From: Umbelopsis ramanniana AG
Lineage: Eukaryota; Mucoromycota; Umbelopsidomycetes; Umbelopsidales; Umbelopsidaceae
Assembly: GCF_025399195.1 (NCBI RefSeq)
Contig: NW_026252122.1
Span: 1 to 64,000, forward strand
Direction: 5' to 3'
DNA: 64,000 nt
The position numbers were made by a program, and so were the translations under genes. The notes below the pieces were generated by a model, which saw only the letters and a program-made list of their open reading frames with translations, was not told the origin of the DNA and made no database searches. Shown piece by piece: positions 46,252 through 60,429 of this stretch (positions are counted from its first letter, which is position 1; every line of letters starts with the position of its first letter).

Positions 46252-48256
46252 TTAAGACACAGTTTTGATGCCTGGGCCACGGGGACCATTTGGCTGTTGC
46301 TTGCCAGCACCACGGCCGGCACCGCCATTAGGCTGATTTGGGCTATATGGTGGCTGTTGAGGCTGCTGCTGTTGTTGCTGTTGTGCTTGCATGTGGGGCG
46401 GCATTGGGTGTTGCTGATAAGGAGGCATGGGCTGACCGTAATAATTCATTTGTGGTTGTGCGTAGCCTGGCATATTCTGGTACTGTGGAAGGTACTGTTG
46501 AGGGTACTGAGGAGCATATTGCTGGGGGTACTGTTGATATGGGGGCATCATTTGTTGCGGGTGTTGCATAGGAGGCATTTGCTGAGGATGCGTCGGTAAT
46601 GGCTGTTGCTGTTGTGGGAGTGCTTGTTGAGGCTGTTGTTGAGGAGGCAACTGTTGTTGTTGTTGTTGTTGCTGTTGTTGTTGTGATTGTTGCTGTTGTT
46701 TCTGCGTTATTAAAGCTTGTTGTCGGTTGGGTTGTTGAATTTGAGCATCATCAAGAGCGCTGGGTGCAACATATAGGCGCTTGTCAATAACCGGAGGAAT
46801 AGATTGAATTTCTGTACCAAGCTCTTGTTCTATCTTGTAAAGGTTAAATCGATCTTCGTAGGTAATCAAATTGATAGCAAGACCAAGATGACCATATCGT
46901 CCACTACGACCAATGCGATGAAGGTATGTCTCGGCGTTCTTTGGGAAATCAAAGTTGATAACGACGTTGACTGCTTGAATATCAATACCACGAGTCAACA
47001 AATCTAAATAGAAAAAGGGACATCAGTACGCAATTCGGGAATCGGTCGGCAAAAAATGGCCACTCACCAGAGCAGACAAGGTTACGGCAAACACCGTTTC
47101 TAAAATCGTGGAAAACTCGGTTTCGGTGGCTCTGCAGCATTCTCGCGTGTGAGTAAAAGCAAGAGTAGCCAAGTTCAGTAATTTTTTTGGCGAGAAGTTC
47201 GACACGGTTGGTGGAGTTACAGAAGATAATGGACTGGTTGATTTGAAGCTTGGAGAAAAGGGTGTTCAGGCAGTGTACCTTTTGCTTTTCTTCAACGAAA
47301 GCGTAATATTGGGTAACACCTCTCAATGTAAGCTCGTCCATCAAGTTGATCTCGTAGGGCTTGACAAGAAATTTGTCCTTGAAAGTCTTTACAATCATTG
47401 GGAAAGTTGCGGAGAAAAGCATTATTTGTCTATCCTTGGGGAAATATGAGATAAGTTGCTCGACAATGGGTGAGAATTCGGGAGATAGCAATTTATCGGC
47501 TTCATCCATGACAAAGGTTGTTGCACTGCTGAAGTCGGCGACTCCTTTAGAAGCCAAATCAAGTATACGACCAGGTGTTCCAACCACGACGTGAACCGTC
47601 TCGCCGAGACGCATGATATCATCCTTGAGAGTGGTACCACCAGTAGTGACCATAACATGGATGCCCATGTGTTTTCCGAGATTCTTACAGACTTGAGCGG
47701 TTTGGAGGGCCAACTCACGTGTAGGGACAAGCAACAGAGCTTGTATATTGGATTTCTTGTTGTTGATCTTTTCGAGGGTAGGGATAACGAAAGCAGCGGT
47801 TTTACCAGTGCCGTTCTTAGCTCTTGCCAATATATCACGACCGGTTAAAGCAATTGGGATAGCTTCTTCTTGAATTGGGGAGGGTCGTTCAAATCCAGCC
47901 TCAAATATACCCATCAATAACTCGCGCTTCAAAAAATAGTCTTCGAATTCATTTCCCTTCGTTGCTGTGACATCCTATAGGCAGAACGTTAGCTGGGTCT
48001 ATAGCAACTTCAATAAGGTTGCTTAGTCCATGACATACTTCGGTTTGTGGACGGTTATCTTTTGCGGGAAGTTGGAGATCTTTCTTCCACCCATCATGTT
48101 CGTGGCTGGTTGCAAGGTGGGAACGAGGCAAAGTAGAAATTAGTCACAAGTCAATTAGCCTGAACGTGCCGGTCCCAAAACATTTCCATGCCACACCATG
48201 GGATCGACAAGCAATGTTGGGTTATGGAACACTCACTTTAGCTGACTCGTTGCCAT
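46252..48256 (-). CDS. DHH1: DEAD-box RNA helicase Dhh1 (DDX6)
   Basis: Dhh1 promotes mRNA decapping and translational repression in P-bodies. A 20-nt first exon (48256-48237) gives MATSQL and joins [23 protein letters not shown]; then [20 protein letters not shown] continues as in yeast Dhh1. The motifs are in order: [16 protein letters not shown] (Q motif), [11 protein letters not shown] (I), VPTRELALQ (Ia), GTPGRILDL (Ib), VMDEADKLL (II), LFSATFP (III), [15 protein letters not shown] (IV), [18 protein letters not shown] (V) and [13 protein letters not shown] (VI). After ALDDAQIQQ comes a Gln/Pro/Tyr-rich tail of over 150 residues with a long poly-Gln run, a probable phase-separation segment. 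It shares a 433-bp divergent promoter with the GTP cyclohydrolase II gene. Identification is secure. Confidence 0.96.
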
Positions 48257-55021: not shown

Positions 55022-57517
55022 CTAGCCAACGCCAAATTTCGTCCCTCCGTCGCCTATTGTACTTCGGCCTTCCTTATCGGTCTCGGGCAAGTTTGCGTGG
55101 CTGGACGAATCAAACACGGTGGGTGTTGCCTCAACAGCGTCAGCTTTGACGGCAGAGTCCTGAGTGGATGGTCCACCCCTCTATTGTGAAAAGAGAAAAA
55201 GATATGCTTTTGGTGAGCTCATGTCTTTCAACGATTGCGTCATAAAATCTCCAAGTCCATACCTCGGAGGCGAAATCATTCATGGCGGTATCAGACCCAG
55301 CTGTATCCCCAGAGACAACGCGTTTTCTTGCTGGCAATTGGAAGAAAACATCGTTCATTTCGTCTTGTCTTCTTTTCAGAGTTTTGTATGTAATCCCCCA
55401 CGGCGTGTGAGGATAGTTGACGGAATTGGCTTGAATGTGATGCACAGAAAACTGCGAAAATGGGCCGCTTTCATCCATATTTCTGGCAGTTTGTGGCACG
55501 AAGGTTTGAACTCCCGCTGAAGTACTTGCCTCACGTTTGCTTCCGTCCGTTTGGTATGTCGTATCACTTACGTTAGAATAGTCTCCTGGGCAGGAATCGG
55601 ATTCACATGCGGCATTCTGCGCCGCTGCAGTCACAAGATTTCTCATGGGTATAGAATGTGGCGACGAAGACAGTGACGATGGATTACGCCAGCTCATGGG
55701 TGAGGTATGTTCGTTTTCAACTTTAGACCGTGCGGCAGTTGAGCTCGTTAGTTCAGCTGGATAATCATAGTCCGTCCCCGTGGAGAGGGTGGCTGACGAC
55801 AGCACAGACGGCGCTGGTGCTTTGCTGGATTTCTGCATAAACGAAGGCAGTTCTGCCGATGCTTGTGGTAAGATATGGGGCAGGATTAACTGTCCCCAGT
55901 TGGCAGGAAACCCATCTTGAAACTGATGGCAAAGCTCCAGCGGAAACTCTGTGGTAGGAAGTTAATATTATCCTTGAATTTCAACAACAGCCAAAACCCA
56001 TGACACCTACCATTTAGAAGCATGCCTTCAATATCGATCTCACCAAATAATCGGTATATTTTCCCACTACTGGAAACCAAAGTCCGTTCATTAATTCGGG
56101 AGACAATTCTGGTGCTGTGCCAAGGCTGTATCGAGACATGCATGGGTAAGTACTGATGGAAAAGCTAACATGAGAAACAACCGCAATGCCCAATTTTACC
56201 TTGTCAAGCGTACAATGAATGCCACCAATGACAATGGCAAGAGCCTAATCACACAAACAATCCTATCAGTACACCATTGACACATTTTGTGGATTGTTAA
56301 AACTCAAATAGATACTACCTCGCCAACCTTGATGCGCTTTAATTTCCAGTTGGACAAATGGACCTCATTCTCATTGTTGTTGTCAGAGGCATCGCTGGTG
56401 TTGCTTCCTGATACCGTAAGGCTGCTATTGGACGAGTAGTGTGACGATACGAATCTGTGTGAGCCTTTGCGAGCTGTGTAATCGGCTCGGAATCGAGCGA
56501 TTCGCTGATTTCGAGCGTGAAGCATGCTTTCATGATGACTTCGTTTTCGGCTGTAATTGGCTCCATCCCTTAAGTCACCCCTCGTGGCAGGTTGACTAGG
56601 TTCACTCGGCAGTGTGGAGGGTGAGCTGGCACGTGCCGCTGATCCGATTTCTGGAATGGATGGGAGAGATCGCGGCTGCGTATATCTTGAACTCATAGCA
56701 AGGTTTTGTTCACTTCGCGTATCGGACGCTATGCTCGATATATTACTTTCGGAAGAATTCAAAACGCTCTGATATGGACTTTCTCGAGTTGACTGAGTAT
56801 GTCTACCGAGATCAGTTGATAAACTCTGTATACTGGATATACTATCAGTTGAATGACTGTTCAAGAGTTCGGGAGCCGGCATTAATGTAGGTCTGGATGT
56901 GTAAGATTTGAATTCATTAGTGATAGGTTGTGGAAAGCTCTCATTTCTCTCTCCCCCCAAAAAGAAATGGATATTTACATTTGGGTTTTGGAGTTTGAGT
57001 GTTGATTGTCTTTCGGAACAATGGTTGTCGTGTCTATTGACGAAGCGGATGCCTGTTGAATGGAGGAGGAAAACTGTGTAAGGCGAAACTCGATAGTGAT
57101 TAAATCGATCTCCTTTTTTTTTACCTGAGGTAATTGTGGAGCGGAGGAGGCTAAACTGGTATTAGCAGACTTTTGTGACTTATCCATCTCTGCACGCAGG
57201 TTGGAAGCCATAGTAGTGTCGCTGGAGTCGCTAACTTCGGTAGAAAAGCAATCTGGAGGTCGAGAGCTGTAGCTATCTTCAGAGGATATTTCCAGCCAGC
57301 GGTGTAAAAGCGAAGGACCAATGTTGTTACAACTTTTCTGCGAGGACTGGCTTCTATTCGAGTTTTGAAGTAAAGTGTTTGGTTTCGAGTGTTCGAGTGG
57401 TAACTTAAAGAAAGACTCTGTACTATTTAAATTGGAGTTGGTTGAGTCGTTTGGTTGATCACCCGATTTGTCTGAGACTTTCTTTTGCTGCTGAGTATCA
57501 GTCGAGGCATGCGACAT
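55022..57517 (-). CDS. SANTA-domain protein, KNL2/Mis18BP1-like
   Basis: A multi-exon gene of roughly 680 residues. The first 400 are low-complexity Ser/Asn/Gln/Thr-rich sequence (start MSHASTDTQQQKK at 57517). Three exons then build a complete SANTA domain: LSNWKLKRIKVGE joined to ALAIVIGGIHCTLDK, then PWHSTRIVSRINERTLVSSS with GKIYRLFGEIDIEGMLLN, then EFPLELCHQFQDGFPANWGQL. The spaced pattern W...V.G...WHS..I..R...L.T/S.SG..Y.L.G.ID...FP..F..GFP..W is the SANTA consensus of plant and animal KNL2/Mis18BP1, which help deposit centromeric CENP-A. The C-terminal part has a conserved-looking HTPWGITYKTLKRRQDEMND and ends at 55022 after a last intron at SE-RGGPSTQD. No SANT/Myb repeat and no CENPC-k motif were seen. 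Two in-frame stretches (near 57054-57125 and 55560) could be introns or retained sequence. Function at centromeres is inference. Confidence 0.8.
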
Positions 57518-58075: not shown

Positions 58076-60429
58076 ATGAATCCAAAAGTTCGCGTTTCTA
58101 GACACTTTTTGAGGTGTTATATGAATTTCAAAAAGGTCAACACCCAATCCGTTCTTTCTGCATTGAGCAATGTAAGAAGGCGACATTTCAGTGATTGTTC
58201 TCAAGGTAATGTGCGTCTGCACGTTGTTGCCTCATCGTCGTGATGAAGCGCCATGTTGTCCCTTAAATGGCTTCCCTTTTGTCACTCAAAGTATATCCGT
58301 GTAACGTCTTATAGCAGCAGGGCAACCATTTTCTATATACATCCACTGGCCGTATTGTGAAAGGTGCATCATCAATAATATATCTCTCCCATATGATTTG
58401 TTTGCCTAATCTCATTGAGATCTCATCATCGTTTTAGCAAGTGTACATACTGTAATTTCAACAAATACATCAATCCAGCTTCTCCTCCGAATGAAAGAAT
58501 GCTATCAGCCATGAAACGTGAGCTGGCTTTTTACATGAGACATCCGAAGTTTGGTCTCCAAGCCCGCAAATTACATAGTATCTATTTTGGTGGGGGAACA
58601 CCAACATTGGCACCGGTAAAGTGCAAATATGTTTTTAAACTGAGTGTCAATGATGCCATGCTGAAACGTTCAATGTCAAAAGGTCTCGACTATTCAATCA
58701 ATTATAGACGAGATAGACAAGACAATGGGAGGATTACACAGTGATATTGAAATTACAATTGAGGTGACTAACCATTCGATGTGTATGCTGTCATTCACAG
58801 TTTGGTAATCGTGTATTGCTTCATCAGGGCAATCCTACAGTAAGTACCCCCCTCGGTCGCATAGAACAATCAGGTTTTAAGAGTGCAATCATGACGTTGA
58901 TGATACTTTGATAAAGTCCAGCGAAATCAGCAAACTTTCATCGTTGCACACGATCGGTGTCAACAGGCTGTCATTGGGTATTCAATCTCTACGCGATGAA
59001 GATCTGCCTATACTAGGTAATTTCATAAATGATACAATCCATGCTCCATGTCATAGGTCTCCTCTAATTCGTAACGATAGGACGTGATCATAATACGAAG
59101 GATGCCATTCACGCTTTGGAGTCAGCTAAGCGAATATTTGGCGATAAGGGCTTTACTTTCGACATGATATTTGGGAGACCAGGCAACTCACTAGATGATT
59201 GGCAAAAAGAATTGAAGGCGAGTACTGTTTATAGACAGTAAAGCTAATCTTCGTCTGTAAGTCGTTTTAATGAAAGAGAGCAGCAAGCATTATCAATCGC
59301 AGGAGATCATATGTCCATATATCAATTGACACTTGAGCGTGGCACTCCGTAAGTCCTCGTTCATTTCATTTTTCCCGCATTGTACTTTGAGCTTATCATT
59401 GCACCATGGCATATTAGTCTGTTCAAAGATGTTATGGCAGGAAAGTTGGCTCCAATTGCTGGTCAAGAAGAGCTTGCGGACATGTACGAGCATGTCATTG
59501 AGGTAAATAACCTCGTAATACACCCCACCTTGGTTGCCTGACCGCGGAGGTACGCTTGGAGATAGTGTATTACATTGAATGCTCAACAGTATGTTTTACG
59601 AATAGGCGACCGCGCAGCATGGATTATTTCATTATGAGGTTTCAAATTATGCGAGAACTACAGCAGCTATGAGCCGCCATAACTTCTCATACTGGCGTGG
59701 CATGGACTACATAGGTATAACATGATGAACAAGAGCACTTGCAACGAGGGTGACACTAATATGTATATTACAAAGGCATTGGCCCTGGAGCTCACGGACG
59801 ACTGACACAACTGAACGGCGAAAGGTTACGTACATTTGGCGAATTCCATCCTGAGCGATGGATGGCTCAATGTGAAGATGAAGGTGACGGGTAAGTATAG
59901 GAAGTAGGTGCTGAGGCCAGATTGCGCATTAACAATTTTCTTAGGATTAGGAAAATGATTCCTATGGAGCATCGCCAGATTCCAGAGGTATGACTACTTT
60001 TACATGTTCAATAAGCACAGCATGACATCTCAGAGAGTATTTACAATAACATTCCCTTCGTCGATCAGGAACTGGTGTTGTTTGGACTTCGAACAAAGCT
60101 CGGTATACCTCGCTCTAGATTTAGTACAATGACAGGCGGGAAAAAGCTGGAAGATGTAGGTGTTCATAGGCTCATCAAGGATTGACTGCTATTATTGACA
60201 TTGTGCTTATTGACAGGCTTTAAGAGGCGATGTAATCAAAAGTTATGTAGAGCATGGATTACTCATTGATGAAGGCAAAACAGAAAATAATGTGCAGACA
60301 TCGGCACCGGAATTCGTTCCAGCCGACTGTGTCAGCGAATTCTACAGCGGGACTATTCGACCGACAGAAAAGGGTCTAGCTGTCATAGACACCATCATTC
60401 CTAATATCCTTAAACCCACTGATAGCTGA
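58076..60429 (+). CDS. HemW/RSAD1 radical-SAM heme chaperone, mitochondrial
   Basis: A radical SAM protein related to coproporphyrinogen III dehydrogenase but belonging to the HemW group, which inserts heme into respiratory proteins. The many-exon product begins MNPKVRVSRHFLRCYMNFKK, rich in Arg/Lys without acidic residues, a likely mitochondrial targeting peptide. Then come FSIYIHWPYCESKCTYCNF with the CxxxCxxC cluster ligands, SIYFGGGTPTLAP, ITIEGNPTSSEI after removal of two introns, VNRLSLGIQSLRDEDLPILG, FDMIFGRPGNSLDDW, HYEVSNYA and YIGIGPGAHG. The C-terminal HemN-like domain has EELVLFGLRTKLGI and ends in RPTEKGLAVIDTI. The typical HemW form has no extra N-terminal Cys/Arg needed for dehydrogenase activity, so heme chaperone is the better call. 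It is convergent with ERO1. Confidence 0.88.

Follow-up and report, generated by a model that had tools for sequence, protein, structure and literature searches.

A conserved SANTA-domain protein and a CENP-C-type cupin protein in Umbelopsis ramanniana, a fungus of a lineage reported to lack CENP-A

The SANTA gene and its conserved blocks

The stretch of DNA analysed here, hereafter the window, comprises positions 1-64000 of contig C36 (NW_026252122.1) in the 22.8-Mb, 123-contig genome assembly of Umbelopsis ramanniana AG, and contains on its minus strand a gene for a SANTA-domain protein (Table 1). A prior reading made from the sequence alone had placed the start codon at 57517 and the last base of the stop codon at 55022, exactly where they lie, and had ascribed the DNA to a probable early-diverging fungus, in keeping with its taxonomy (Mucoromycota, Mucoromycotina, Umbelopsidales). 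Its count of three exons was too low; there are seven, with the SANTA domain (residues 333-420) spread over exons 3-6. All introns of the spliced minus-strand model are GT/AG and 62-86 bases long. The 681-residue model is identical in every letter to K450DRAFT_245796 (P0001, U. ramanniana AG), a third-party annotation, so that the agreement concerns annotation and not RNA reads. Public databases already name K450DRAFT_245796 SANTA domain-containing; the protein itself is not new.

Table 1. Positions of the SANTA gene, its parts and the CENP-C-type cupin gene. Positions are those of the window unless a contig is named.
Feature	Position	Strand	Basis or remark
SANTA protein gene	55022..57517	(-)	start to stop codon, 7 exons, 681 aa
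Exon 1, residues 1-131	57125..57517	(-)	splice model
Exon 2, residues 132-155	56979..57052	(-)	splice model
Exon 3, residues 156-347	56319..56892	(-)	splice model
Exon 4, residues 348-362, 45 bases, within SANTA domain	56200..56244	(-)	splice model
Exon 5, residues 363-400, SANTA domain core	56011..56125	(-)	splice model
Exon 6, residues 401-629: SANTA end, linker, block C	55263..55948	(-)	splice model
Exon 7, residues 630-681 + stop	55022..55180	(-)	splice model
SANTA domain, residues 333-420	55890..56363 (introns 3-5 included)	(-)	Pfam, PDB 9r6h
Block A, residues 67-113, conserved	57179..57319	(-)	40/47 identical in P0004 and in P0005
Block B, residues 269-303, basic, before SANTA	56451..56555	(-)	32-34/35 identical, four relatives
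K-V/I-E...SPMSWR element after SANTA, residues 476-488 (P0001)	55686..55724	(-)	SPMSWR invariant 5/5
Block C, residues 563-597, holds HTPWGITYKTLKRRQ	55359..55463	(-)	31-35/35 identical, four relatives
CENP-C-type cupin gene, three exons, 276 aa	C4:324706-325672 (L016:3707-4673)	+	PF11699, this analysis's own model

Some annotation details of this gene vary. The 72-base intron 1 can be read through in frame in U. ramanniana and might be retained, and across window positions 56893-57161 the gene annotations differ among species near introns 1 and 2, where that of U. vinacea (P0002) apparently follows another reading frame. In the annotation of U. isabellina (P0005), exon 4 (window 56200-56244) and its 15 residues are missing, probably a missed micro-exon or an annotation slip. 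The surroundings of the gene are gene-rich and ordinary, with neighbours judged by eye to encode a HemN-like radical SAM protein (58100-60000, plus strand) and a DEAD-box helicase (46255-47974, minus strand). Rfam gave zero matches over the 64-kb window at the gathering threshold.

Scanning the spliced protein with hmmscan gave a significant match to PF09133 (SANTA) at 63.1 bits against a cut-off of 21, spanning profile positions 1-91 of 92, with an E-value (3.4e-17) that rules out a chance match. The complete SANTA domain divided among several exons, as read from the letters, was thus confirmed by the profile search. Up to E 1, the protein contained no other Pfam family, and the SANT/Myb domain was absent. 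In KNL2/M18BP1 proteins a SANT/Myb domain is an animal feature, not a plant one. The whole genome, searched in six frames, has this SANTA place only. Among PDB entries, 9r6h (Mis18-binding protein 1) matched at E 2.8e-8 with the SANTA domain and 1.9e-7 with the full protein; the second match of the domain was insignificant (E 1.7). We take 9r6h to be the human M18BP1 SANTA crystal structure of Walstein et al., because a passage of PMC13294675 mentions such a structure, there still unreleased. Full-length structure prediction from the alignment failed, giving a poor model (mean pLDDT 32.1), and the SANTA fold therefore rests on sequence.

SANTA proteins had been taken as known from plants and animals, which is correct as far as it goes; chytrid fungi too have KNL2 proteins (PMC9210943). 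M18BP1 is missing from fission yeast (PMC7618776). Our protein searches returned the U. ramanniana protein itself and four relatives, all from Umbelopsis (5 of 128 candidates at E up to 1e-3, and the same five of 32 in a looser search at E up to 10), a restriction to be read with the fact that these searches need shared 5-residue words, so that relatives in Mucorales, Mortierella or Endogonales could escape them.

Conservation along the protein is uneven. The long N-terminus ahead of the SANTA domain, already remarked upon from the sequence, changes fast except for its conserved blocks. Between P0004 and P0001, 40 of 47 residues are identical in block A, 32 of 35 in block B, 74 of 88 in the SANTA domain and 31 of 35 in block C, compared with 43 of 146 in residues 114-268 and 13 of 45 in the C-tail; block limits were set after viewing the alignment, and columns gapped in the relative were excluded from these counts. 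In P0005, from which exon 4 is missing, 61 of the 73 remaining SANTA residues are identical. The C-terminal block HTPWGITYKTLKRRQ (residues 581-595; 55409-55365, minus strand), singled out by the sequence-only reading as conserved, is indeed the same in all five aligned Umbelopsis proteins. A helix is predicted at residues 269-298 in block B with low confidence; the model is poor overall, and its mean pLDDT across residues 261-300 is 44-61.

That the blocks and the SANTA domain have been held while the linkers diverged favours function and disfavours decay. A pseudogene is ruled out by the open seven-exon gene and the blocks conserved in the aligned proteins. It is likewise very improbable that the gene is a functionless, decaying relic of a lost CENP-A pathway: relatives found in Umbelopsis only would suit such a relic, as would the failure, described below, to find the usual partners CENP-A, Scm3 and Mis18, but the gene is open in all seven exons and five aligned proteins keep the SANTA domain and the blocks.

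CENP-A and other centromere proteins in the genome

CENP-A is a special histone and the usual mark of the centromere. The sequence-only reading had pointed to reports that some Mucorales (Mucor) lack it, and a review gives CENP-A as missing from every member of Mucorales and Umbelopsidales (PMC9089191). The sequence-only reading had proposed looking in the same genome for CENP-A, CENP-C, Mis18 and HJURP/Scm3, and we ran all of these searches. The histone profile PF00125 matched eight places. Two are canonical H3 loci (contigs C11 and C99), and the other six read by eye as four H2A or H2B genes (C11), one gene of H2A type (C88) and one NF-YB. With E up to 10, all four scored candidates of an H3 query and all three of a fission yeast Cnp1 query fell in the two canonical H3 loci. 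No CENP-A was found by the H3, Cnp1 and PF00125 searches, made exon by exon on this one assembly, an approach that could miss a very divergent CENP-A split into short exons. This negative speaks to whether the SANTA protein can act in loading and leaves its KNL2/M18BP1 descent untouched.

We consider it unlikely that a highly divergent or unassembled CENP-A exists in Umbelopsis and is loaded by the SANTA protein in the ordinary KNL2-type manner. The exon-wise search leaves room for this, as just described, and a genome that keeps both a SANTA protein and a CENP-C-type cupin protein resembles those of organisms with CENP-A; against it stand the review cited above and the H3 and Cnp1 results, in which even a 25-residue H3 exon, the smallest piece found with the H3 query, was detected, though at 88% identity.

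The profile Yippee-Mis18 (PF03226) gave three candidates (C27:218210, C27:14343 and C111:4363), all three of which carry the Yippee pattern when read by eye, so that no Mis18 was recognised. Mis18 as a partner of KNL2/M18BP1 is an animal feature. Scm3 (PF10384) had no match in the genome in a search lacking a positive control, the control genomes being silent too. In fungi and animals, loss of CENP-A has been accompanied by loss of Scm3/HJURP, and Scm3 is capable of strong divergence (PMC13001451, a preprint); the latter would help to accommodate a hidden CENP-A.

The CENP-C search was positive. PF11699 (CENP-C_C) matched contig C4 at 49.3 bits, and the 276-residue protein modelled there reaches 59.9 bits with this profile (cut-off 29), covering its positions 4-85 of 85. 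Matches that stay under their own cut-offs are NupH_GANP, at 18.5 bits in the N-terminal part, and a pair of generic cupin families at 13.9 bits each. Its best PDB matches are Cnp3 of fission yeast (1.3e-5) and Mif2 of yeast (1e-4), followed by a third Mif2-like chain (5e-4) and, fourth, a dioxygenase (0.0031); matches to CENP-C entries of vertebrate type are less significant (0.11 and 0.89). Two of 181 candidates are relatives: P0006, 58% identical over 91% and itself carrying PF11699 at 47.4 bits, and P0007, a 191-residue piece without the cupin, 61% identical over 65%. The N-terminus is common to all three proteins, which supports the start codon. None of the three contains a CENP-C motif, the element that binds CENP-A nucleosomes, by a strict or a looser pattern. 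The database search with the cupin protein returned no Umbelopsis-named protein, and the gene may be missing from public sets.

CENP-T, CENP-I and Ndc80 are present as well. Ndc80 matched on C7 at 80.1 bits. CENP-I, on C45, reached 43.7 bits together with a neighbouring match, the two scoring 21.9 and 16.3 bits apart against a cut-off of 23. CENP-T, on C74, consists of three collinear pieces; a single one of them exceeds the cut-off by itself, and it matches CENP-S as well. The other CENP-T_C places were H4 (C11 and C1), the two H3 loci, NF-YB and one TAF9-like place; this last, at C1:196882, is the weakest CENP-T_C match and was rejected as a hidden H3 variant, reading by eye as TAF9.

CENP-C is reported missing in Mucor (PMC7729030, PMC9252888) and, in PMC7729030, from the whole order Mucorales; the passages of these papers do not address Umbelopsidales. 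As one explanation of the SANTA gene, a leftover of the ancestral centromere machinery had been put forward. To this has to be added that a CENP-C-type cupin protein persists in the genome, so that the SANTA gene is not an isolated leftover.

CENPC-type motifs in the SANTA proteins

A strict CENPC pattern, which recovers both control motifs, found nothing in the five Umbelopsis SANTA proteins. A looser pattern gave two matches in P0002 and one in P0003, of which those at 468 (P0002) and 470 (P0003) lie at a corresponding place that is conserved in all five proteins. A still looser pattern, composed after the K-V/I-E...SPMSWR element had been seen, finds one corresponding place in all five. The element, whose coordinates were counted from residue 581, is spelled KVEHVSPMSWR in P0004 and KIENISPMSWR in P0005, with two more residues between in P0001-P0003. 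CENPC-k lies after the SANTA domain, as this element does. Both spellings resemble the way in which the plant CENPC-k motif ends (RVLLVSPLEFW; PMC9210943), with a lysine at the needed arginine and the upstream arginines missing. The sequence-only reading had suggested that HTPWGITYKTLKRRQ might be a partner-binding site in place of CENPC-k; that block is conserved and may bind some partner, but the SPMSWR element is closer to the CENPC-k ending than HTPWGITYKTLKRRQ is.

The element may be an eroded CENPC-k remnant or a chance resemblance, the likeness being weak and post hoc. CENPC-k is not universal in KNL2/M18BP1 proteins, being missing from eutherian mammals and from plant betaKNL2 (PMC9210943). 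If the element is an eroded remnant, it would fit a recent contact with CENP-A nucleosomes, which counts against the reading that we prefer below; as a possible diverged CENPC-k motif, it would also favour a hidden CENP-A, against which the strict pattern finds no CENP-C-type motif in either the SANTA proteins or the cupin protein.

Possible roles after a reported loss of CENP-A

Among known systems, the protein is like Arabidopsis betaKNL2 in having SANTA as its sole known domain, no full CENPC-k and short conserved C-terminal motifs (PMC13294675, PMC9210943). Plants with betaKNL2 differ in having CENH3 and lacking the CENP-C cupin, whereas here no CENP-A was found and the cupin is present. 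The SANTA domain and its match to 9r6h relate the protein to vertebrate M18BP1/KNL2, which in eutherian mammals is likewise without CENPC-k; unlike the vertebrate proteins, it has no SANT/Myb domain, and no Mis18 was recognised and no CENP-A found in its genome. A CENP-A-free lineage with CENP-T present recalls the mosaic kinetochore of Mucor circinelloides, but, in contrast to Mucor and Mucorales, reported to be without CENP-C, the Umbelopsis genome encodes a CENP-C-type cupin protein.

The most likely reading, held with moderate confidence, is that a KNL2/M18BP1-type SANTA protein was kept after Umbelopsidales lost CENP-A and most likely still works at centromeres, where it would serve as a scaffold or licensing factor and would have given up loading CENP-A. 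Its SANTA domain would dock on the inner kinetochore, with the shortened CENP-C cupin protein, CENP-HIKM or both as partner, and basic block B and block C would contact DNA, nucleosomes or another partner. In favour of this reading stand the SANTA and Mis18BP1 matches, the constraint on SANTA and blocks A-C beside fast-changing linkers, the CENP-C-type cupin protein with its PF11699-bearing relative, the presence of CENP-T, CENP-I and Ndc80, and the published absence of CENP-A in Umbelopsidales. We infer the centromere localisation, the docking partners, the scaffold role and the parts assigned to blocks B and C from the M18BP1 and betaKNL2 literature. M18BP1 reaches metaphase centromeres through binding of its SANTA domain to CENP-C (PMC9210943), and its footprints, SANTA included, likely engage CENP-C and CENP-HIKM (PMC12484383). 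Plant betaKNL2, without a CENPC motif, uses SANTA together with its C-terminal part to reach centromeres, and it also binds DNA (PMC13294675). Since plants keep SANTA proteins in the absence of the CENP-C cupin (PMC13294675), the two need not be partners. Other points that count against the preferred reading are the cupin gene, whose splice model is this analysis's own and for which no Umbelopsis-named protein came up, the SANTA fold resting on sequence, and the chance that a very divergent CENP-A in short exons escaped the searches.

It seems rather unlikely that the SANTA protein was repurposed for work off the centromere, such as condensing chromosomes or binding chromatin in general. The condensation role of C. 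elegans KNL-2 is separable from CENP-A loading (PMC8714079), and conserved basic block B could bind DNA, both of which would suit such a change; the retained CENP-C-type cupin protein, on the other hand, points to the centromere, and a condensin II kleisin was not found with CNDH2_N (PF06278), which is a weak argument against repurposing, the control genomes being silent too.

A bolder extension of the preferred centromeric reading is distinctly unlikely: that the SANTA protein, with at most an eroded CENPC-k, and the cupin-only relative of CENP-C, with no CENP-C motif, together became a CENP-A-independent kinetochore anchor once CENP-A was lost and jointly carry the centromere identity formerly carried by CENP-A. 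The SANTA domain would then hold the CCAN, and blocks B and C would read DNA or ordinary H3 nucleosomes.

The review of CENP-A absence (PMC9089191) leaves M18BP1, KNL2 and Mis18 unmentioned, and the main text of a 2017 kinetochore survey (PMC5579357) contains no Mis18, Mucor, KNL2 or M18BP1. We found no earlier description of a SANTA protein and a CENP-C-type cupin protein kept together in a CENP-A-less lineage, in a search that subscription papers mostly lay outside. The usual account of KNL2/M18BP1 and CENP-C runs through CENP-A, the histone to which they bind or whose loading they assist. Where CENP-A is not detectable, as here, the persistence of a conserved SANTA protein together with a CENP-C cupin would be a case of these functions separated in nature. 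The pattern suggests an order of loss in Mucoromycotina, with CENP-A first to go, the cupin and SANTA proteins still present in Umbelopsis, and CENP-C reported missing in Mucorales. Such an order bears on what positions a kinetochore along a chromosome when CENP-A is absent, and Umbelopsis offers a way to ask what role SANTA and CENP-C-type proteins play once the CENP-A histone is gone.
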